Positions 1,403-9,340 of a DNA stretch of 64,000 nt are shown piece by piece (the first letter of the stretch is position 1; every line of letters begins with the position of its first letter). Below the pieces are notes generated by a model, which made no database searches, was not told the origin of the DNA, and was given only the letters and a program-made list of their open reading frames with translations. Origin of the DNA: Ruminococcaceae bacterium R-25 (lineage in GTDB: Bacteria; Bacillota; Clostridia; Saccharofermentanales; Saccharofermentanaceae). The translations under genes and the position numbers were made by a program. The stretch spans positions 1,302,001 to 1,366,000 of the forward strand of contig QGFZ01000001.1 of NCBI GenBank assembly GCA_003149065.1, read 5' to 3'.

Positions 1403-1485
1403 GAGTTCCGCAGGTATTTTCCTCAATCAGCTGCGGTCTGCTTTTAGAAAAATAGAAAAACCACCTGTGATACGAGTTCCGCAGG
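1403..1485. repeat. Two copies of GAGTTCCGCAGG, 71 bp apart
   Basis: GAGTTCCGCAGG occurs at 1403-1414 and 1474-1485. Flanking bases are loosely similar in the two copies (a CACCACTT/ACCACCTG-like run before each), which suggests an old duplication of a hairpin unit. The second copy lies inside the large hairpin at 1452-1533. The first forms a weaker hairpin with CTGCGG/CCGCAG arms. Confidence 0.5.
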
Positions 1486-1533
1486 CGCTTTAGCGCCGAG
1501 GACCTGTTTGAAGTATCACAGGTGGTTTTCTAT
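1452..1533 (-). terminator. Large branched terminator hairpin after tRNA-Arg
   Basis: Arms at 1452-1473 and 1513-1533 are complementary over about 21 bases with one extra A in a run. The inner 39 bases hold a second small hairpin, GGCGC-TTTA-GCGCC. Read on the minus strand the outer stem ends in T-rich sequence (TTTTTCTATTTTT), so it can act as an intrinsic terminator for tRNA-Arg and for read-through from the Rnf-like operon. The long stem and nested inner hairpin are larger than a usual terminator. Confidence 0.7.
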
Positions 1534-1538
1534 GACTT

Positions 1539-1615
1539 TGGTGATCGTGAGCGGATTCGAACCGCTGGCCTACCGCTTAGGAGGCGGTCGCTCTATCCAG
1601 CTGAGCTACACAATC
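1539..1615 (-). tRNA. tRNA-Arg (anticodon CCT), CCA encoded
   Basis: Read on the minus strand, a seven-base acceptor stem GATTGTG pairs with CACGATC (one T-G wobble). The D arm is GCTC-AGCTGGATA-GAGC. The anticodon stem ACCGC/GCGGT encloses loop CTCCTAA, giving anticodon CCT for AGG codons. The T arm is AGCGG-TTCGAAT-CCGCT, the discriminator is A, and CCA is encoded. It lies between the Rnf-like operon (17 bases downstream of its last stop) and a strong hairpin terminator. Confidence 0.95.
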
Positions 1616-1632
1616 AGGCGAACGAGATTATA

Positions 1633-2781
1633 TCACAAACCCGGGATACTATAAAGACACGTCTCTGCCAACATTATGACTAATGAGATGAGGATCAGGT
1701 AAAAAGGCAGACCGTCTATATATTTGGACTTGGACACGAAGATAAGTCTTCGTCTGATAACTGAAAGAAGTCCCGTCATGATGATATCCGAGCAGATAAT
1801 AAGAGCCAGGGCGACCAAAAGGTGCCAGACCTTCGGAAAACCGGGATTTGCAAGAAATATAACCGAAATAAATGCAGCAGCCATGGATACTTCACTGATG
1901 AAGTAACGAAGGCCGAAGATCGAGCTTCTGTAATTATGCCTTGCAGCATAGACCATTATCGAGCCTGAGAGGAGTGCGATTACCGCACAAACAGGTATTG
2001 CAGAGAGCCTGAAAAGCTCGCTGTCAGTAAAGATCTTTAAAACATAAAGAGAGGCCATGCACAAAAGACATACAACGGCAAATTCGCCCCTGGCGCTTAA
2101 GAATCTGCGAAGCTCGGAAACGTTGGCTACGGGAATATCCCAGAATTCCGTAAGTTTTTTGGAAGTAGCGCATCTCGGAGCACCGGTGATCCTTGAAATT
2201 ACCCAGCTCATAACGATAAGGAACATTACTGATGCAAGAAGAGAAACAAATACGAATCGCTTCTCGAAAATAAAGGTCATAAGGGTTCCGAATATTGAGC
2301 AGACGAGGGCTATGGCATAAGGGAGCATTACTTCCCTGCCAAACGCAGGCCTCGTGAACTTATCGTTATCGTCGTCCTTAAATCTTGCTACAGACATGAT
2401 TCCGATTGCCATTGGAATAAACCCAGCTATGGCATATGGCACGCATAAACCGAGCTGGTAGGAGTATTCTCCTGCTGCGACAAAGAGCGCTAATACAAAC
2501 GCAAATGTAATTACCGACAGGTTTCTCGGCATGAAGAATCTTAATGTTATTGCCCATGCAAAAAGACAGACAAATGAACATGCGGCAGGCCACCAAATGA
2601 CATTTCCCGAGATCATGAACTCGAGGCAGAGAGATACCATTGTATAGCCTAAAAGGAGTGAGGCTCTGGTCGACAGGTATCTTGCGGGTCTGACGTGGGA
2701 AGCCGTGAACTTTTCTTCCACGGGTCTTCTCATCTGCTCGTTATCGAACGGCGTATTGTATTTCTCAGTAAACAGGCCCAT
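1633..2781 (-). CDS. Unrecognised polytopic membrane protein of the Rnf-like locus
   Basis: About 382 residues with roughly ten hydrophobic segments and a short charged cytoplasmic-looking N-terminus. The ATG at 2781 is preferred over upstream in-frame starts: it overlaps the preceding stop as TAATG and has GGAAGG seven bases before it. The charged loop FKDDDNDKF and a hydrophilic stretch (ATSKKLTEFWDIPVANVSELRRF) separate two hydrophobic halves. It lacks the conserved cysteine motifs of RnfA and RnfE, so it is not simply one of those subunits. Translational coupling to the FMN-binding gene suggests it belongs to the same complex, perhaps as membrane anchor or quinone/ion-handling subunit; that is inference. 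Confidence 0.75.
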   Translation of the reverse strand: MGLFTEKYNTPFDNEQMRRPVEEKFTASHVRPARYLSTRASLLLGYTMVSLCLEFMISGNVIWWPAACSFVCLFAWAITLRFFMPRNLSVITFAFVLALFVAAGEYSYQLGLCVPYAIAGFIPMAIGIMSVARFKDDDNDKFTRPAFGREVMLPYAIALVCSIFGTLMTFIFEKRFVFVSLLASVMFLIVMSWVISRITGAPRCATSKKLTEFWDIPVANVSELRRFLSARGEFAVVCLLCMASLYVLKIFTDSELFRLSAIPVCAVIALLSGSIMVYAARHNYRSSIFGLRYFISEVSMAAAFISVIFLANPGFPKVWHLLVALALIICSDIIMTGLLSVIRRRLIFVSKSKYIDGLPFYLILISLVIMLAETCLYSIPGL

Positions 2782-4139
2782 TATGTTACCTTCCAGTTCA
2801 GATATTCCTTGAGGAATTTGTAGCATGTGTTGCAAGCCTTGACTACCGTTCTTGTCTGGTCGTAGCGGTTCGGAACAGGCTCAATGAACGACGCCATTTC
2901 GGTCATGGGGAGGTCGTCCAAGCTGTTCGTGATTATCTGGTCGTCGAAAGATTTGCCGGAGTTCAATCCGTCTTCGGTGGAATCGTAATCGACAGTACTC
3001 TTTTTGCTGTTATTATCGGTGTCTGTCTTCTTTTCGGGTTCGGTGTTGCTGTTAGGAATGGTCTGGCCGCGAAGCTTTGCTTCAATCTGCATAACGCCCA
3101 TATATCCTATAGCAACTTCGTCTTCATTGTAGATAGTATATATCTCAGGAGTTTTCTCAAATGAGAATACGACGTGCTTGTCATCGTTAAGGTATTCCAG
3201 GTCTTCCGCATCTTTCTGATAAAGGTGCAGGAGAATAAGATCAAGGCCGATCATGTATTTATCTTTGTCGTAGCCGGCACGGGAATTTTCGATGCACTCC
3301 ATCGCAAGCTCTACAAAAGGCCTGATATCGCATGTAACGCCCTTGACGATGTCCGTGGTACCGTCTGATTTCATCGCAAGCCTGTCGGGATCCTGGCACT
3401 CAAGGAGCGCGTGGCAGACATTATAGGACTGCGTAGCCCAGTCAAGACCGGAGATAACATAAGCACCCTTCAGAGAAGCTTCGCTCCTGTCCTGGTTTGT
3501 CTTATCAGTACTGAAGGCATCCCACTTAACCTTTGTAATAACACCGTTCTTTATTTCCATCTCGACATAGTCGATGTAACGGTTCCTGTCGTCGTACAGT
3601 CTCTGGGCATAGTAAACACCGTCGTTTAAGCCCGGAACGGTAATCTTTTCGTTATTGTTATCGTCAGTCTTCTGCTCTTCCTTTACGAAAGCTACAGGGA
3701 TCTGCTTGCCGATAAGTTTATCTTTTATAAGGTCCATATCACTGTCGCTTATAACGAATGCGTTATCTTCTTCGTTCTTATTGAGTGAAAGTCCCTTGAT
3801 CCTGGTGTTCTCGTAATCGAGTGATACGAGCATGCTCAGATCCTGTCCGTATAAAGACTTAACTGTCAGATCTAGCACATAGCCTGTCGGCGTACCGTCA
3901 GCATCGTAGCCGATATAGAAACCCTTGATCTCAGGATAGCTGTTTAAAGCCTTGGAGTTGACCTTTTCATAAGTTGCGGCTTCCATTACCACGTCGAACC
4001 TGCTGTGATAAAGGCTCTGCATGCGCTTATTGGCATTCTCGGAAGAGATGAAATACCCTCCGATGACAAGAGCAACGCTTAAGATAAAAAGCAGGACCGC
4101 CTCAGTAATAAGCTGCTTGAGCTGTGTATGCGTCATCAT
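2781..4139 (-). CDS. RnfG-like FMN-binding membrane-anchored protein
   Basis: A 452-residue protein with one N-terminal membrane segment (about residues 13-31) and a large outer region. Residues about 70-120 resemble the RnfG/NqrC FMN-binding fold (GFYIGYDADGTPTGYVLDL). A second unit (about 165-290) begins VPGLNDGVYYAQ and contains DIVKGVTCDI, which aligns by eye with the flavin-attachment motif D-x-x-S/T-G-A-T of flavinylated proteins and keeps the final threonine. An Asn/Lys/Thr-rich low-complexity linker follows, then a C-terminal ACNTC motif. Canonical RnfG is about 200 residues, so this is twice the usual size. It overlaps the RnfD-like gene by four bases (ATGA). Confidence 0.7.
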   Translation of the reverse strand: MMTHTQLKQLITEAVLLFILSVALVIGGYFISSENANKRMQSLYHSRFDVVMEAATYEKVNSKALNSYPEIKGFYIGYDADGTPTGYVLDLTVKSLYGQDLSMLVSLDYENTRIKGLSLNKNEEDNAFVISDSDMDLIKDKLIGKQIPVAFVKEEQKTDDNNNEKITVPGLNDGVYYAQRLYDDRNRYIDYVEMEIKNGVITKVKWDAFSTDKTNQDRSEASLKGAYVISGLDWATQSYNVCHALLECQDPDRLAMKSDGTTDIVKGVTCDIRPFVELAMECIENSRAGYDKDKYMIGLDLILLHLYQKDAEDLEYLNDDKHVVFSFEKTPEIYTIYNEDEVAIGYMGVMQIEAKLRGQTIPNSNTEPEKKTDTDNNSKKSTVDYDSTEDGLNSGKSFDDQIITNSLDDLPMTEMASFIEPVPNRYDQTRTVVKACNTCYKFLKEYLNWKVT

Positions 4140-5119
4140 GATACATCCACCTCCCTGGAATGGATCTTTCTTCTTGAAAGAGTTTTCGAGAAGAAATCCA
4201 ATACGAAAGATAAGAAATTAACTGCCATTACGGGCGCTAAGAGCGACACCATGGGTGATACGAACGGTTTTGTAACGAGCGTCAGGATGCCGCATGCGAT
4301 GCCTGCAAATACTCCCGCTGCAAACCTCGAAGGCATTGTGGTCATGTCTCCTAAAAGGAATACTGCAACAAATACCGCACCTGATGACATGACATATACG
4401 ATGAGCCCGTCGAAAGAAAATTCTCCTGATTCGAGAATAGTTGCGACAGGATAAAAGACAAATAAAGTGAGCACATAGGATACCGGAGAATAAAGTCTCA
4501 TGGTGCCCTTAAGTGTAAGAAAAAGACCTCCGACCAGAATACAGATGAAGCATGCGGTGCCGATCATGCCGGGATAGTTTCCGCTTAAAAGTTCTGTAAA
4601 CGAGAGGTTCGTAAGGTCAGGCAGAGCGCCGGGCTTTTTCTGTACGATAAGGCTCATCAGCTGGAGCCTGGAATTATCTTCTCCATAAGACAGGCCCTGG
4701 GTTCCGCTGGGCATAACGAGCTCGATAAATAGTCTGCCTGCACATGCAGGATTAATGATGTTGCTTCCTGCGCCGCCGAAGACCTGCTTGGTAACAATGG
4801 ATGCAAACAATACAGCCGCAAGAGCCGTAACAAGCGTTGTATCAGGGGGCAGCATGAGAGCGATAAGAAGACCTTCCACAAGGGAACTTAAGTCAAAGTA
4901 ATCGCCGCCTGATCTCCTTCCTGTTACCCTCACACAGAGATTATCGATCAAGGTGAAGGCTGCCATGGAGAACAGCATCAGTATAAGCGCCCTCAAGCCG
5001 TAATAGAAAATGCCGCAAACGATACAAGGCACCAGAGATACCAGGATCGTGATATAGATATACGGAGCGTTTTTCTCCGTATGGATAAAGGGCGCAAGCT
5101 GTCTATTATCAGAACTCAT
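4136..5119 (-). CDS. RnfD/NqrB-family membrane subunit, divergent
   Basis: A 327-residue polytopic protein matching the RnfD/NqrB family: an N-terminal RQLAPFIHTEKNAPYIY segment, the conserved GGAGSNIINPACAGRLFIE region and the later GNYPGMIGTACFICILVGG segment. In RnfD and NqrB a threonine in an SGAT-type motif between these two segments carries covalent FMN. Here that place reads YGEDNSRLQLMSL, with no threonine in register, so covalent flavin may be absent or displaced. It overlaps RnfC (ATGA) and the next gene (ATGA), so all are translated as a coupled set. Expected to sit in the inner membrane and move electrons or ions; direction is not deducible. Confidence 0.85.
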   Translation of the reverse strand: MSSDNRQLAPFIHTEKNAPYIYITILVSLVPCIVCGIFYYGLRALILMLFSMAAFTLIDNLCVRVTGRRSGGDYFDLSSLVEGLLIALMLPPDTTLVTALAAVLFASIVTKQVFGGAGSNIINPACAGRLFIELVMPSGTQGLSYGEDNSRLQLMSLIVQKKPGALPDLTNLSFTELLSGNYPGMIGTACFICILVGGLFLTLKGTMRLYSPVSYVLTLFVFYPVATILESGEFSFDGLIVYVMSSGAVFVAVFLLGDMTTMPSRFAAGVFAGIACGILTLVTKPFVSPMVSLLAPVMAVNFLSFVLDFFSKTLSRRKIHSREVDVS

Positions 5120-6636
5120 ACTTCTTTATCCCTCTCAAAAGGCAGCGTAATAGTATCTGAAGACTTCTTGTTCTTATTATCATCGTCATCAGAATAGTCT
5201 TCAAGAAGCGATGTCCCGCCCAAAGCAGGTGCCTCATAATTGTCATAAGTCATGTCTTCTAAGCCGCTGTTATCCAAAAGCGAATTGACTTCGATGATCC
5301 TGCCCTCACCCGCAAAGCTTGCGATAGCGGTAGTAAGATTAATGCCTGCAGGACATACATAGGAACAGGAACCGCATGCGATGCAGTCTCTCGCGCCCTC
5401 TTCAGACGCCTTCTGTCTTAAACCCTGGTTGAGCATCTCATAGATAGTATTAGGGGATAAGTTCATCGGGCAGCATTCAGAGCAAAGACCGCAATGGATA
5501 CAAGGGGTCTTCGGAACTTCTGCTCTTCTGACAGCTGAGATTACGGAAGTAGTCTTAACTACAGGCGTATGCTCAGGATCTTTTATCTCGATTCCCGTAA
5601 GGCAGTTGCCCCAGATTATCCTGTCGCTTCCGTTTCTTACATCCTGAGCATTTGAAAGGAGCTCTGATACGGGTGTTCCGATAGGAACGAGCATATTGTG
5701 TCCGCCTGAAGCGTCTCCAGTTACGGATACGATCCTGCTCATCATCGGGATATTATCTGATAATGCTTCCCAGCAGGCAAGCATTGTAGAACAGTTAAAG
5801 AGCACTGCCCTGCAAGACTTTTCGAGCGTCTCGCCAAGGACAAGGTTCTTGCCGTAAAGGGCTCTTGCAACGAGCCTGTAATAGCCCTGCGGGAAACGCT
5901 CCCTGAAAAGCTTTATGTCAAATTCCAGATCCTTAAAATCTGACTTGATCTTGTCGATTGAATTGGAAAGTGCCTTTCTCTGTTCCTTTCTGTTTTCGGA
6001 AATAAGGAAAACACACCTTGATGCTCCTACGGCTCTGGCGCACGCGCAGGCGCCCATAACAACATAATCGGGATATTCCGTAATCGCTACGAGATCGCAT
6101 GTAGAATAAGGCTCACTCTGAAGGCAGTTGACCAGGAAATCTTTTACGATCTCATTTCTTGCTCTTTTGAGCTTTGCTGCAGTCGGGATTCCTTCTCCGC
6201 CCATTCCGCAGATGCCTGCATCTCTGATAATGTTTATTGTCTCGGTAGCGCTGATCTTAAAGCCTGATCTGGGTTTGATCGAATCAAGCCTCGTTCTCTT
6301 CATGTCGTTAACGATGGTAACAGCAGGCGTAATTATTCCGTTAGGAAGCCTTATCTCGGAAATGTCGGAAACTTTACCGGATATTCCGCTGTGAACAGGA
6401 ACGGAGAACGCGCCTTTCTGAGGAACGCCGACGCACTGGCCGATCCTGACATAATCACCTGTCTTAACTGCAGGGACTGCCGGAACGCCGTAATGCATCT
6501 TCATTGGAAGGATTATCTTCGAAGGATAGATCCTCTCGAACATGATCTCCTTGACAAAAGGGGAACGCTTTGAAAAATTCAAAACGTCCCCTGTAAATAG
6601 TCCTCTGTAAAATGAATATCGTCTTCGGTCTGCCAC
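5116..6636 (-). CDS. RnfC-like iron-sulfur electron-transfer subunit
   Basis: A 506-residue RnfC-family protein. Two ferredoxin-type clusters are clear: CIHCGLCSECCP and CIACGSCSYVCP at about residues 385 and 425. The Rossmann-like region has CGMGGEGIPTAAKL, matching the family GMGGAGFPT motif. The usual GAECEP and PQGGEKQ signatures are replaced by CLQSEP and PQGYYRL, so NADH/FMN handling may differ from standard RnfC. The C-terminus is a short acidic and basic tail rather than the long repeat tail of proteobacterial RnfC. It starts at a GTG, 45 bases after rpoD, and overlaps the RnfD-like gene by four bases. Confidence 0.85.
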   Translation of the reverse strand: MADRRRYSFYRGLFTGDVLNFSKRSPFVKEIMFERIYPSKIILPMKMHYGVPAVPAVKTGDYVRIGQCVGVPQKGAFSVPVHSGISGKVSDISEIRLPNGIITPAVTIVNDMKRTRLDSIKPRSGFKISATETINIIRDAGICGMGGEGIPTAAKLKRARNEIVKDFLVNCLQSEPYSTCDLVAITEYPDYVVMGACACARAVGASRCVFLISENRKEQRKALSNSIDKIKSDFKDLEFDIKLFRERFPQGYYRLVARALYGKNLVLGETLEKSCRAVLFNCSTMLACWEALSDNIPMMSRIVSVTGDASGGHNMLVPIGTPVSELLSNAQDVRNGSDRIIWGNCLTGIEIKDPEHTPVVKTTSVISAVRRAEVPKTPCIHCGLCSECCPMNLSPNTIYEMLNQGLRQKASEEGARDCIACGSCSYVCPAGINLTTAIASFAGEGRIIEVNSLLDNSGLEDMTYDNYEAPALGGTSLLEDYSDDDDNKNKKSSDTITLPFERDKEV

Positions 6637-6681: not shown

Positions 6682-7734
6682 TCAGTCGGAATAACCTTCG
6701 AGCTTCTTTGACTTAGGCGATCTGTTGAGCTTTCTGATGGCTTTTGCCTCGATCTGTCTGATACGCTCACGTGTAACGCCGAGCTTCTTACCGACCTGCT
6801 CGAGTGTCATCGGAACGCCGTCCTTAAGACCGAATCTTAATTCGATAACTCTTCTTTCTCTGTCTGTTAAGCCGTTCAAAGCCTGGATCAAGTCTTCCTT
6901 CAAAAGGATCCTTGCAACCTCTTCTTCAGGTGCAGCGAGCTCATCGTTGGAGATAAAGTCAACCAGGTGGCTGTCCTCTTCCTCACCTACAGGCTTATCG
7001 ATGGAGATAGGATCCTGTGAGATCTTCTGGATCTCTCTGATCTTTGCAACTTCCATGCCCATAGCTTCAGCAAGTTCTTCTGTAGTAGGCTCTCTGCCTA
7101 AATCCTGAACGAGCTGGCGCTGAACTCTTGTAAGCTTATTGATAGTCTCAACCATATGAACAGGGATTCTGATCGTTCTTGCCTGGTCAGCGATAGCTCT
7201 CGTGATTGCCTGGCGGATCCACCATGTTGCATATGTGGAGAACTTAAATCCCTTTGTGTAATCGAACTTATCAACAGCCTTGATAAGACCGATGTTACCT
7301 TCCTGAATAAGGTCAAGGAGTGAGAGACCACGGTTCATGTACTTCTTAGCAATAGAAACAACGAGTCTCAGGTTGGAGTTGATAAGGAGCACCTTTGCTT
7401 CCTCATCGCCCTTTGCCATTCTCTGGGCGATATCCTTCTCCTGCTCTGCATCCAAAAGTTCGATCTTACCGATCTCCTTGAGATACATCTTCACGGAGTC
7501 ATCTACGACATTGGCATCCTCGCCGTCGCTGTCGAGATCTGTATCGTCGTTATCAAGATCGGGATCGCTGATCTTAACGCCGCCGTTTTCGAGCTCAGCT
7601 CTGAGATTGATCATCTCATCGGGTTCGATCTTATATGAATCTGTGATTGCTTCGAACTCTGTCTCAGTAATCTGATTCTCATTCTTCTCTGCAAATTTCT
7701 TTGCCTGTGCCAGTGCTTTCTCAAAATCTGTCAT
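6682..7734 (-). CDS. rpoD: Primary RNA polymerase sigma factor (RpoD/SigA)
   Basis: A 350-residue housekeeping sigma factor that directs RNA polymerase to -35/-10 promoters. Region 1.2-2 is clear ([16 protein letters not shown], then [27 protein letters not shown] and [17 protein letters not shown]). Region 3 has [13 protein letters not shown] and region 4 ends with the helix-turn-helix [20 protein letters not shown]. The acidic N-terminus is short, as in Gram-positive SigA. Ribosome site GAGG lies ten bases before ATG. Unusually, dnaG is not adjacent; instead a zinc-ribbon membrane protein lies upstream and the Rnf-like operon follows after 45 bases on the same strand. Confidence 0.97.
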
Positions 7735-7809: not shown

Positions 7810-8562
7810 TTACTTGCTGGGTACGGGTGTAGGTGTTGAGATCTTTACTGATTCCTGAACATCCGTCTTTAAGCCGTCTTTGGATACAGAGATTATTGTG
7901 CCGGGTGTGTAAATGTACATCTCGACATCGTCAGATTCAAAACCGCGCTTTGCAGCACGAAGATTCATGTAATTCGTATAGAACTGCTGTGCTTCGCCCT
8001 CAGTAATGTCTTCTGAAAGACCGATCTTAATGTACTGACATGAAAGTCCGTAGATATTGATCTGCTTGTAATCAAAATTTCTCTCTGTATCGTTCGTAGC
8101 AAAGATCATGTCAACTTCTGAAGTGATCGCTTCATTCAGTGACTTGCGTGAAAAATAGAGCGGGAAAGCGATAGCGAGGATTATTGCTACTACTAAGACA
8201 AATCCTCCGATCATTCCGATCATAAGCTTTTTAGGAGCTTTTACGTCGTTAGGAGAGATCTCAAACTCATTGGGCTTGAGCTTTGCTTCTGCTGTCTGTG
8301 TCTTGGAAGTCTTTTCTCTCTGAACTGCCTTCTCAACAACATCCGGCATTACCGGGTTGGAATAATAGTGCTTGGTGCCTGAAGTGGTATTCTTCTCAAA
8401 CTTCTCGTTCTTGAACTCATATCCGTCAGGATTCTCGAGGATCTTAACTGCTTCTTCTGAAGGGAAAACGCAATTACAGAATACGCACTCACAAAGTTCG
8501 TCTCTGTCATCAAACATAACGAGCGAACCACAGTTCTTGCACATACCTTGTTTAGTCGCCAT
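7810..8562 (-). CDS. Zinc-ribbon, single-pass membrane protein
   Basis: A 250-residue protein with an N-terminal zinc ribbon (CKNCG near residue 8 and CVFCN near 27), a polar linker, one membrane helix at about residues 115-137 (MIGMIGGFVLVVAIILAIAF) and an outer domain of about 110 residues ending in a Thr/Pro tail. The architecture is a cytoplasmic metal-bound sensor or scaffold linked through the membrane to an external domain, but no family is recognised. It heads the run leading to rpoD and has a good minus-strand promoter upstream. A second zinc-ribbon/membrane protein at 46345-47907 has a similar plan. Confidence 0.8.
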   Translation of the reverse strand: MATKQGMCKNCGSLVMFDDRDELCECVFCNCVFPSEEAVKILENPDGYEFKNEKFEKNTTSGTKHYYSNPVMPDVVEKAVQREKTSKTQTAEAKLKPNEFEISPNDVKAPKKLMIGMIGGFVLVVAIILAIAFPLYFSRKSLNEAITSEVDMIFATNDTERNFDYKQINIYGLSCQYIKIGLSEDITEGEAQQFYTNYMNLRAAKRGFESDDVEMYIYTPGTIISVSKDGLKTDVQESVKISTPTPVPSK

Positions 8563-8701
8563 TAAAAAAATCGTCCTTTTGTGTTGAAGTATGCGCTTTA
8601 AGCAAACCGGCGCCGACTATTATTCAGGGATAATGTTGAAAACCGGCCGTAAATACGGCATTCCCTCTGCGTAGGCATAGTTCTACTTATAGCAATCGTA
8701 A

Positions 8702-8730
8702 ATTATAATATGCTTATGTTATATCGTCAA
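8702..8730 (-). promoter_or_regulatory. Sigma-A promoter for the zinc-ribbon/rpoD run
   Basis: On the minus strand TTGACG (8730-8725), a 17-base spacer and TATAAT (8707-8702), close to consensus. The predicted start lies about 130 bases before the zinc-ribbon gene. Its -35 box lies 18 bases from that of the divergent tadA promoter. Confidence 0.7.
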
Positions 8731-8748
8731 GAACAATTTTCGTTAGTC

Positions 8749-8778
8749 TTGACACTTTCCGTTTCCGCTCTGTATTAT
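8749..8778 (+). promoter_or_regulatory. Sigma-A promoter for tadA
   Basis: TTGACA (8749-8754), an 18-base spacer and TATTAT (8773-8778). The predicted start near 8785 leaves a leader of about 28 bases to the TTG start codon, consistent with that start. Confidence 0.65.
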
Positions 8779-8812
8779 CAGTCCCATAAGACATTTTACG
8801 AGGTTTTCCAAG

Positions 8813-9340
8813 TTGCCAAGATCCAGATCAAAGCTTTATCCTGACTTTAAGCCCTCCTCAGACAAGGAGCGCTTTATGCTCGAAGCCATAAAGGAGGCCG
8901 AAAAGGCCATAGATCTCGGCGAATGTCCCATTGGCTGCGTCATTGTCAAAGACGGCAAAGTCTTCGTAAGAGCACATAACTTAAGGCTTACCAGGGGTAA
9001 TGCCATAGCTCATGCCGAAGTCATCGCTATCGACAAGGCATGCAGAAAACTCGGCGACTGGCGGTTGGAAGACATGGACATGTATGTCACGTTAGAGCCC
9101 TGCACCATGTGCTCCGGAGCAATCATCCAGTCCCGGATCAGAAAAGTCTATTTCGGAGCTTATGAGCCCAAAAGCGGCGCCGTTGTATCCTGCAATGACA
9201 TTTTCGAAGTATCACACGGCCACAACCACAAGGTCGAGTTCGAAGGCGGCATCATGGAAAAGGAATGCTCTCAAATGATGCTCGATTTCTTCCGTGCTAT
9301 CAGGAAAAGAGACGCCGGCAAGAAGCGTTCCAAGCCTTAA
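8813..9340 (+). CDS. tadA: tRNA-specific adenosine deaminase TadA
   Basis: This enzyme converts adenosine to inosine at the wobble position of tRNA-Arg(ACG). The 175-residue frame has the cytidine/deoxycytidylate deaminase signature: HAEVIAI (zinc histidine and catalytic glutamate) and PCTMCSGAI (zinc cysteines). The first start is TTG at 8813 with GAGG nine bases upstream. An ATG at 8876 has a stronger AAGGAG at ideal spacing, but it would remove the KERFM segment that matches the family N-terminus, so I prefer TTG. The stop codon shares TTAA with the convergent addA stop. Confidence 0.92.
   Translation: MPRSRSKLYPDFKPSSDKERFMLEAIKEAEKAIDLGECPIGCVIVKDGKVFVRAHNLRLTRGNAIAHAEVIAIDKACRKLGDWRLEDMDMYVTLEPCTMCSGAIIQSRIRKVYFGAYEPKSGAVVSCNDIFEVSHGHNHKVEFEGGIMEKECSQMMLDFFRAIRKRDAGKKRSKP

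Follow-up and report, generated by a model that had tools for sequence, protein, structure and literature searches.

A putative RnfB-less paralogue of the Rnf core in the Saccharofermentanaceae

Known Rnf-type systems and the cassette of Ruminococcaceae bacterium R-25

The Rnf complex (RnfABCDEG) is a ferredoxin:NAD oxidoreductase (NAD, nicotinamide adenine dinucleotide; NADH in its reduced form) for which several structures are available (7zc6, 8ahx and 9eri). Electrons travel between RnfC, RnfD, RnfG and the iron centre of RnfA/E (PMC11889175). A related four-gene operon, referred to below as the cassette, occupies positions 1633-6636 on the minus strand of a 64,000-nucleotide stretch of the genome of Ruminococcaceae bacterium R-25 (contig QGFZ01000001.1, positions 1,302,001 to 1,366,000); this whole stretch is called the window. 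The cassette has counterparts of RnfC, RnfD, RnfG, RnfE and RnfA in the canonical order and, like canonical Rnf, retains the iron-sulfur (Fe-S) motifs of RnfC and the riboflavin residues of RnfD. Unlike canonical Rnf, the operon is without RnfB, and E and A form one chain without the cluster cysteines. It further differs in having no covalent flavin mononucleotide (FMN) motif in D or G, an extra domain in G, a rebuilt RnfC loop and a tree branch of its own (support 100/100). We propose, with moderate confidence, that this paralogous, RnfB-less Rnf core may be a redox-switched or truncated membrane oxidoreductase and not a ferredoxin:NAD ion pump.

Na+-NQR, the sodium-translocating NADH:quinone oxidoreductase, offers the closest evolutionary parallel. 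According to its origin model, an rnf operon was duplicated, rnfB was lost and the CDGEA order was retained (PMC4014512), and the cassette appears to repeat these same proposed opening moves. The two then part: in Na+-NQR the membrane flavins and the iron centre remained and the RnfC/NqrA cofactors disappeared (PMC4014512), whereas the cassette lost the opposite set. The Nqr/Rnf-like flavinylation systems share with the cassette a reduced gene set and an RnfD/NqrB-type domain without a flavinylation site (PMC8238504, PMC11334425). They appear to consist of two subunits, carry PF00175 as a fused domain, have their extracytosolic subunit flavinylated and are associated with ApbE; in contrast, neither PF00175 nor the motif was found in the cassette, and no ApbE was found in the window's genome. 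RsxABCDGE is an Rnf homologue thought to serve a protein, through the reduction of SoxR, and not to act as a pump (PMC12174285). It differs from the cassette in that it has A, B and E subunits by name, and ApbE motifs have been reported in RsxD and RsxG (PMC12174285). A literature search covering open-licence papers by title and abstract opening returned no description of the cassette, in keeping with the original prediction, made from the window's letters alone, that the gene combination was an unfamiliar one.

The four subunits

The four open reading frames (ORFs) are joined, in the order rnfC'-rnfD'-rnfG'-orf4, by ATGA, ATGA and TAATG overlaps in turn, as had been predicted. No further gene that could encode RnfB was found in the operon, either among the window's ORFs or in the relatives' loci that were read, and this part of the prediction also stands. 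Residue counts are given for rows of aligned proteins from the window's genus, from sister genera of the same family and from canonical Rnf loci; the genomes are mostly metagenome-assembled genomes (MAGs). The 38 genus rows used for motif counts exclude the near-duplicate rows L021-L030, identical rows and one locus, L036, which was left out because its RnfC and RnfD share one frame. That frame (L036 4558-6978) is open over 806 aa and is either a natural fusion or a MAG indel.

The first gene, rnfC' (5116..6636, minus strand, 506 aa, GTG start), encodes an RnfC-like module of the NADH/FMN type, which carries two [4Fe-4S] motifs and, at its C-terminus, a tail specific to the genus. The protein scored 278.8 bits against TIGR01945 (cut-off 245.95) and matched the structure chains 7zc6_C, 9eri_C and 8ahx_C. 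Against the nqrA model TIGR01936 it reached 15.9 bits (cut-off 321.05); with its Fe-S cysteines present, RnfC' is not NqrA-like. The two motifs are intact (residues 379-428; 5353..5502, minus), and all eight cysteines are kept in 38/38 genus, 24/24 sister and 21/21 canonical rows. The glycine-rich/NADH loop (residues 144-175; 6112..6207, minus) is different, with GLGGAGFPT changed to GMGGEGIPT and NGAECEP to NCLQSEP. The positions compared here are taken to belong to the FMN/NADH site, by analogy with NuoF of complex I. A148E was found in 38/38 genus rows, with E also in 21/24 sister rows, E173Q in 38/38 and 23/24, and C174S in 38/38 and 24/24, while A, E and C are retained in all 21 canonical rows. 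Lys155, Asn170 and Glu175 are unchanged. The loop has been rebuilt rather than scrambled, and the predicted alteration of the NADH/FMN loops was confirmed, without exception among the genus rows covered.

Of the four subunits, RnfC shows the highest conservation within the genus. Its tail there (SLLE ... ITLPFEGGK, window 5116-5240) has six residues, S476, L477, L478, L498, P499 and F500, that are invariant in 48/48 rows (near-duplicates L021-L030 included alongside L031-L068) and absent from canonical RnfC. The tail looks like a docking peptide. Both features would suit a reductase that is anchored in the membrane and acts on a protein in the cytosol, comparable to RsxABCDGE and SoxR, in which RnfC would be the active end, the tail would dock the partner and the other subunits would be the anchor. 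However, the tail is missing from the sister cassettes: no LPF near the C-terminal end was found among 24 sister RnfC' proteins, of which 23 are 443-451 aa long and one is 481 aa through an upstream start. In addition, no partner gene is known, and an anchor leaves no reason for the kept riboflavin residues of RnfD. This explanation is considered quite unlikely.

The second gene, rnfD' (4136..5119, minus, 327 aa), encodes an RnfD-like membrane subunit that scored 169 bits against PF03116 (cut-off 27.7) and 108.2 bits against TIGR01946, below the cut-off of 207.05. Together with the TIGR01945 score of RnfC', this bears out the predicted RnfC-like and RnfD-like pair. Pfam returned PF03116 alone, and the NAD-binding domain PF00175 was not found. 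In Acetobacterium woodii, Thr156 is the FMN threonine of RnfD, Asn123 and Asp249 are its riboflavin residues, and a role is also described for Thr185 of RnfG (PMC11889175). By alignment to 9eri_D and 7zc6_D, the riboflavin residues were mapped onto Asn123 and Asp258 of RnfD'. The Asn is present in 35/38 genus and 23/24 sister rows, and the Asp in 37/38 genus rows (one has Glu) and 24/24 sister rows. The covalent-FMN threonine motif, scored with a loose, custom-made pattern, was found in 22/22 canonical rows, 0/38 genus rows and 1/24 sister rows.

An RnfD' protein of sister genus g234 (L120 1647-2657, genome G477) carries DTISSATP at the canonical FMN-threonine site. It branches early in the tree and may be a leftover of the state before the motif was lost.

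The third gene, rnfG' (2781..4139, minus, 452 aa), encodes an RnfG fold (N-terminal part and C-terminal helix) without an ApbE motif. Like the orf4 protein, it gave no Pfam or NCBIfam match above cut-off. Its AlphaFold model (predicted local distance difference test score, pLDDT, 75.4; predicted template modelling score, pTM, 0.45) was compared using VIA-align with RnfG of Rnf structures from three species, giving Z values of 10.6-13.5 at a root-mean-square deviation (rmsd) of 9.5-11.7 along the length. For residues 1-450, the values were Z 13.5 with 7zc6_G (rmsd 10.5, 179 aligned) and Z 13.4 with 9eri_G (rmsd 11.7, 182 aligned). Given the high rmsd and the pTM of 0.45, the relative placing of the two RnfG' domains is not claimed; the insertion rests on the hhalign alignment as well. 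There, RnfG' matched canonical RnfG over its length at E 4e-17 without the insert and at 1.2e-13 with it, and the inserted domain alone did not match canonical RnfG (E 0.14).

The inserted FMN_bind-type domain (residues about 165-300; 3240..3647, minus) is related to 2kzx and CPE2226 (3o6u). Its profile matched 2kzx at E 7.7e-18 and 3o6u at E 0.0026, and the model of residues about 170-292 gave Z 13.9 with 3o6u_D (rmsd 2.0, 110 aligned) and Z 12.3 with 2kzx. PF04205 (FMN_bind) matches both of these structures but not the domain encoded in the window. RnfG' is an RnfG fold into which an unlike FMN_bind-type domain has been inserted; it is not a doubled RnfG, and the double-size FMN-binding RnfG of the original prediction has to be corrected accordingly. 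The full ApbE-type motif was found in neither domain (0/39 genus and 0/24 sister proteins); where 2kzx has DAISGAT, the inserted domain has DIVKGVT or similar. A class-wide search for the two-domain RnfG' matched 86/391 genomes. The full-length matches were 11 genomes of the window's genus; the remaining 75 covered part of the model, and no sister genus was among the matches listed. An apparent replacement of the RnfG FMN threonine by an invariant proline (DSVDGLP against DAISGAT) was considered and dropped, as hhalign puts the SGAT region on a neighbouring segment.

The retention of this RnfG fold with its inserted domain, with many invariant residues, would agree with electron export by a half-pathway. 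Electrons would pass from NADH through RnfC and the RnfD riboflavin to non-covalent flavins, in the RnfD FMN pocket and in RnfG', and on to an extracytoplasmic acceptor, with orf4 as a scaffold. Nqr/Rnf-like complexes without the RnfD flavinylation site have been published with export proposed (PMC11334425), and a lipoprotein-like ORF (2-910, minus) lies beyond the tRNA gene. However, the extracytosolic subunit of the published complexes is flavinylated, whereas in the window's genus 82/85 genomes gave no ApbE match and all 63/63 RnfG' proteins of genus and sisters lack the full motif. An acceptor was not identified among the neighbouring genes, which were covered at the ORF level and, in three cases, with Pfam. 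Export by this route is regarded as unlikely. The same ApbE and motif counts, with those of RnfD', do not uphold the earlier placing of the locus among flavinylation-linked systems, and its description as an electron-export unit meets the difficulty that a recognisable carrier is lacking beyond the cytoplasmic half of RnfD.

The fourth gene, orf4 (1633..2781, minus, 382 aa), appears to encode a decayed single-chain RnfE-RnfA fusion that has lost the cluster cysteines. Its N-half (about residues 1-205) is RnfE-like and its C-half (about 206-382) RnfA-like, so that the operon would read rnfC-D-G-(EA), the Rnf core minus RnfB. This C-D-G-(E-A) order is that of the canonical loci read. The identification relied on a profile of 23 sister orf4 proteins chosen by position. 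When searched against 297 ORFs of canonical rnf loci, it found 22/22 RnfE (E 2.4e-8 to 3.5e-3) and nothing else at E <= 1. Among 329 polytopic ORFs, which include copies from overlapping loci, it matched 35/35 of the RnfE class plus the orf4s, with 0/139 of the RnfD class and none of the 11 RnfA-class or the unclassed ORFs; reversed ORFs gave no match at E <= 10. In hhalign comparisons, sister residues 1-213 matched RnfE at 4.7e-8 (4.9e-6 without two decayed rows), and residues 174-375 matched RnfA more weakly, at 1.7e-3. The C-half built from genus and sister rows matched RnfA at 1.7e-5 (2.5e-4 without the decayed rows), and these rows mixed were not significant against RnfE (0.08-0.28).

Canonical RnfE and RnfA have two invariant cysteines each (11/11), and no mostly-Cys column is common to the 28 genus and 23 sister rows of orf4. 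The original prediction that RnfA and RnfE are absent was right in that the genome has no PF02508 gene (the RnfA/E family), and wrong in that a decayed fusion seems to be present as orf4, beyond the reach of Pfam and NCBIfam. The AlphaFold model of orf4 (pLDDT 80.2, pTM 0.81) has 11 long predicted helices. Foldseek returned no structure at E <= 0.001, and RnfA/E chains were not among the solved structures listed; the best VIA-align Z, 7.6, concerned parts of the model and is not meaningful for helical bundles. No match to PDB sequences was found. An unrelated transporter was rejected as the identity of orf4, with no Pfam, NCBIfam, PDB or Foldseek support for it and with the sister sequences settling on RnfE.

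Among 28 genus rows, orf4 shows no variation at R39, R81, E150, R231, D332 or R344. These residues and the one-chain fusion would fit a carrier that works by alternating access within a single chain, with Na+ or a small solute as its substrate, and that is regulated by the redox state of RnfC-RnfD and not driven by an iron cluster; work on A. woodii also puts Na+ translocation in RnfA/E (PMC11889175). Such a redox-gated transporter is unlikely, as no substrate is indicated and the fold searches described above gave no significant solved structure. The preferred reading, a redox-switched or truncated oxidoreductase, is taken up again below.

Paralogy, conservation and selection

The order rpoD, rnfC, rnfD, rnfG, orf4 on one strand was found by tblastn in 38/38 loci of named genomes (L031-L068; some genes are cut by contig ends), with RnfD identity to the window's copy between 36% and 92%. 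Among named genomes, the closest relatives come from rumen and gut; most are MAGs and bear labels such as Saccharofermentans sp., Ruminococcaceae or Clostridiales. In a first sample of the genus, each of 35/35 genomes had one RnfD, which scored 122-180 bits where other families of the order reach 298-392 bits, and PF02508 was found in 0/35.

A whole-family search was then based on 85 genomes of the window's genus and 30 genomes of four sister genera. RnfD' was present in 83/85 genus genomes (the remaining two genomes have a completeness of 93% and 73%) and orf4, by profile search, in 81/85; the cassette occurs in all five genera of the family. Cassette-type RnfD (189-248 bits) was found in 30/30 sister genomes and canonical RnfD (334-390 bits) in 28/30, on a different contig from the cassette. 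PF02508 was likewise found in 28/30 sister genomes, as opposed to 0/85 in the genus, and ApbE in 29/30 as opposed to 3/85. The two sister genomes with cassette-type RnfD alone are G476 and G544; the latter has an RnfB-like N-terminal match despite having no canonical RnfD, and its canonical locus may have been lost to a gap. In the 24 sister cassette loci, rnfC', rnfD' and rnfG' are present in all, rpoD adjoins 23 of them, and 23 have an ORF of 374-392 aa at the orf4 position. In the window's own genome (3.07 Mb, 99.2% complete), a profile search of the whole assembly found neither a PF02508 gene nor ApbE. These searches and comparisons had been suggested together with the original prediction, as had the trees below.

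The three genus genomes with ApbE are G488, G214 and G516, in a genus where no RnfA/E-family gene was found.

The TIGR01944 tally of 113/115 genomes was dropped as evidence for RnfB, since the model matches generic ferredoxins (12/14 control genomes). Among the matches listed, the N-terminal RnfB region (model about 4-96) was found in 29/30 sister genomes, while the genus genomes gave ferredoxin-type matches (model 89-178) and no N-terminal RnfB region.

In the RnfC tree, 26 cassette rows from all five genera are split from 21 canonical rows by a 100/100 branch, and seven canonical rows from the same family are nested among their order-mates; the program flagged the long inner branch between the groups as a long-branch meeting point. 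In the RnfD tree, the 22 canonical rows are set apart by a 100/100 branch. The split is less clean here in one respect: as the root is drawn, the row L121 from a sister genus is placed with the canonical side (93/75), yet outside the 100/100 canonical branch. A position of RnfC or RnfD within the canonical Rnf branches is thus ruled out by the trees. So is an assembly break or contamination, given the five-gene order in 38/38 named loci, the occurrence in all five genera, the absence of PF02508 throughout the genus samples and the separate contig of canonical RnfD in the sister genera. Since the sister genera hold both canonical Rnf and the cassette, and the two stand apart in the trees, the cassette appears to be an Rnf paralogue older than the split of the family's genera. 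The window's genus would have kept the cassette alone, canonical Rnf having been lost and ApbE lost nearly always.

The dN/dS ratio (nonsynonymous to synonymous substitution rates) was 0.044-0.080 in 9/12 comparisons, those with a defined dS; dS was saturated in the other three pairs. This points to strong purifying selection on the cassette genes. It bears directly on whether the cassette is a decaying remnant retained by hitch-hiking with rpoD. Many cofactor sites have been lost and RnfG' and orf4 diverge faster than RnfC, as a remnant would lead one to expect. However, RnfD' is present in 83/85 genus and 30/30 sister genomes, the frames are open, dN/dS is low and new invariant residues have appeared. 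A remnant is therefore considered highly improbable.

Proposed function and mechanism

The alignments above show that two parts of the Rnf chain are kept, namely the [4Fe-4S] motifs of RnfC and the residues with which RnfD binds riboflavin at the cytoplasmic face. The four RnfA/E cluster cysteines are lost, as are the motifs for covalent FMN in RnfD and in RnfG and, from the operon, RnfB. With RnfC and the RnfD riboflavin site kept and the rest lost, electrons would reach the membrane and would not cross it via known carriers. Because the known electron sites across the membrane are lost and strong selection persists, the cassette probably has a new job.

In the mechanism we propose, a cytosolic donor (NADH, or another one in view of the rebuilt loop) would reduce RnfC', and electrons would pass through its Fe-S clusters to the riboflavin of RnfD' and end there. 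The reduced state could then have two outcomes. It might be handed to a small diffusible acceptor, which is the less favoured; or, more likely, the RnfG'-EA' half would sense it through a change in conformation, this half having been retained as a moving, cofactor-free membrane module. RnfA-E has been compared to Na+/solute symporters (PMC12174285). A bolder version holds that, after Nqr, the cassette is another case in which a duplicated Rnf core without RnfB independently took on a new function, with the fused RnfE-RnfA as a redox-gated alternating-access carrier under NADH or redox control; it is regarded as doubtful.

Several observations weigh against the redox-switched oxidoreductase or the identifications beneath it. 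The donor site is altered (A148E, E173Q, C174S), and RnfC' may have lost the ability to bind NADH or FMN. Asn123 of RnfD' is replaced in 3/38 genus and 1/24 sister rows. Non-covalent flavins in RnfD' or RnfG' may be compatible with the sequences: in the inserted domain, all 30 genus rows compared have the GVT threonine (in some sister rows the position is V, R, D, E, K or S), and the genus RnfG' of L059 has a stray TSGAT in its linker, with the motif Asp missing. The orf4 profile built from the genus alone matches just 2/22 RnfA genes and nothing else among the 297 canonical-locus ORFs, 1/11 RnfA-class ORFs and 6/24 sister loci. In a 188-genome search, it found a canonical RnfA in one (G448, E 6.5e-4, locus L119) of 94 PF02508-holding genomes. 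In hhalign, the genus rows alone are weak, at 4e-4 to 2e-3 for RnfA (whole or C-half) and 0.3-0.9 for RnfE. Since the genus-only profile does not find RnfE, the RnfE half of the window's orf4 rests on its sister-genus counterparts. Most dS values exceed 1, hence the dN/dS ratios are rough. Finally, no functional clue could be read from the neighbouring genes, within the ORF and Pfam coverage given above.

The cassette is of wider use to the study of Rnf and Nqr, where the coupling of electrons to ions is disputed, with RnfA/E and RnfD as rival ion paths. It amounts to a natural experiment in which the membrane redox centres have been removed and the subunits are under selection, in many related species and with sister genera that hold both versions. 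It thereby gives a handle on the roles of RnfA/E, RnfG and RnfD beyond electron transfer, and another example of the event from which Nqr is proposed to have arisen, in which the rnf operon is duplicated and lacks rnfB. It also shows that matches to RnfC and RnfD alone are no proof of an Rnf pump; rumen genomes of the Saccharofermentans type could be misread in this way.

A second RnfB-less set in the order C-D-G-E-A was found in another family of the order, in genomes G046 (L098 1669-6393) and G058 (L101 2175-6650). All four RnfA/RnfE cluster cysteines are replaced, the RnfD FMN motif is kept and an ApbE gene is present; no RnfB-like Fe-S ORF was found within the stretch read. By its sequence, this set fits a simplified (half-Rnf) electron exporter better than the window's cassette does. 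Within a low-complexity stretch of the RnfG-like protein of G046 (L098 4078-5160), a 16-residue unit that includes the ApbE-type string DGQSGATP is repeated in tandem, and G058 has related repeats. Such repeats may form a flexible arm flavinylated at several sites, or may reflect nothing more than low complexity.

Neighbouring genes

The upstream neighbour and conserved partner of the cassette is rpoD (6682..7734, minus), 45 bp from rnfC'. Directly downstream of the operon is the gene for tRNA-Arg(CCT) (1539..1615, minus). A hairpin with the arms AACCACCTGTGATAC / GTATCACAGGTGGTT was seen by eye at window 1459-1527, between this tRNA gene and the next ORF downstream. The lipoprotein-like ORF at 2-910 runs off the window edge; its start has a signal-like stretch ending in SVASC.

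Upstream of rpoD (region 7810-9340) is a gene for a CKNCGSLV protein without a Pfam match, which occupies the same place in four sister loci. A deaminase gene comes next after it, an order repeated in at least L116 and L117. As both genes are kept near rpoD in sister loci, the conserved block is larger than the cassette.

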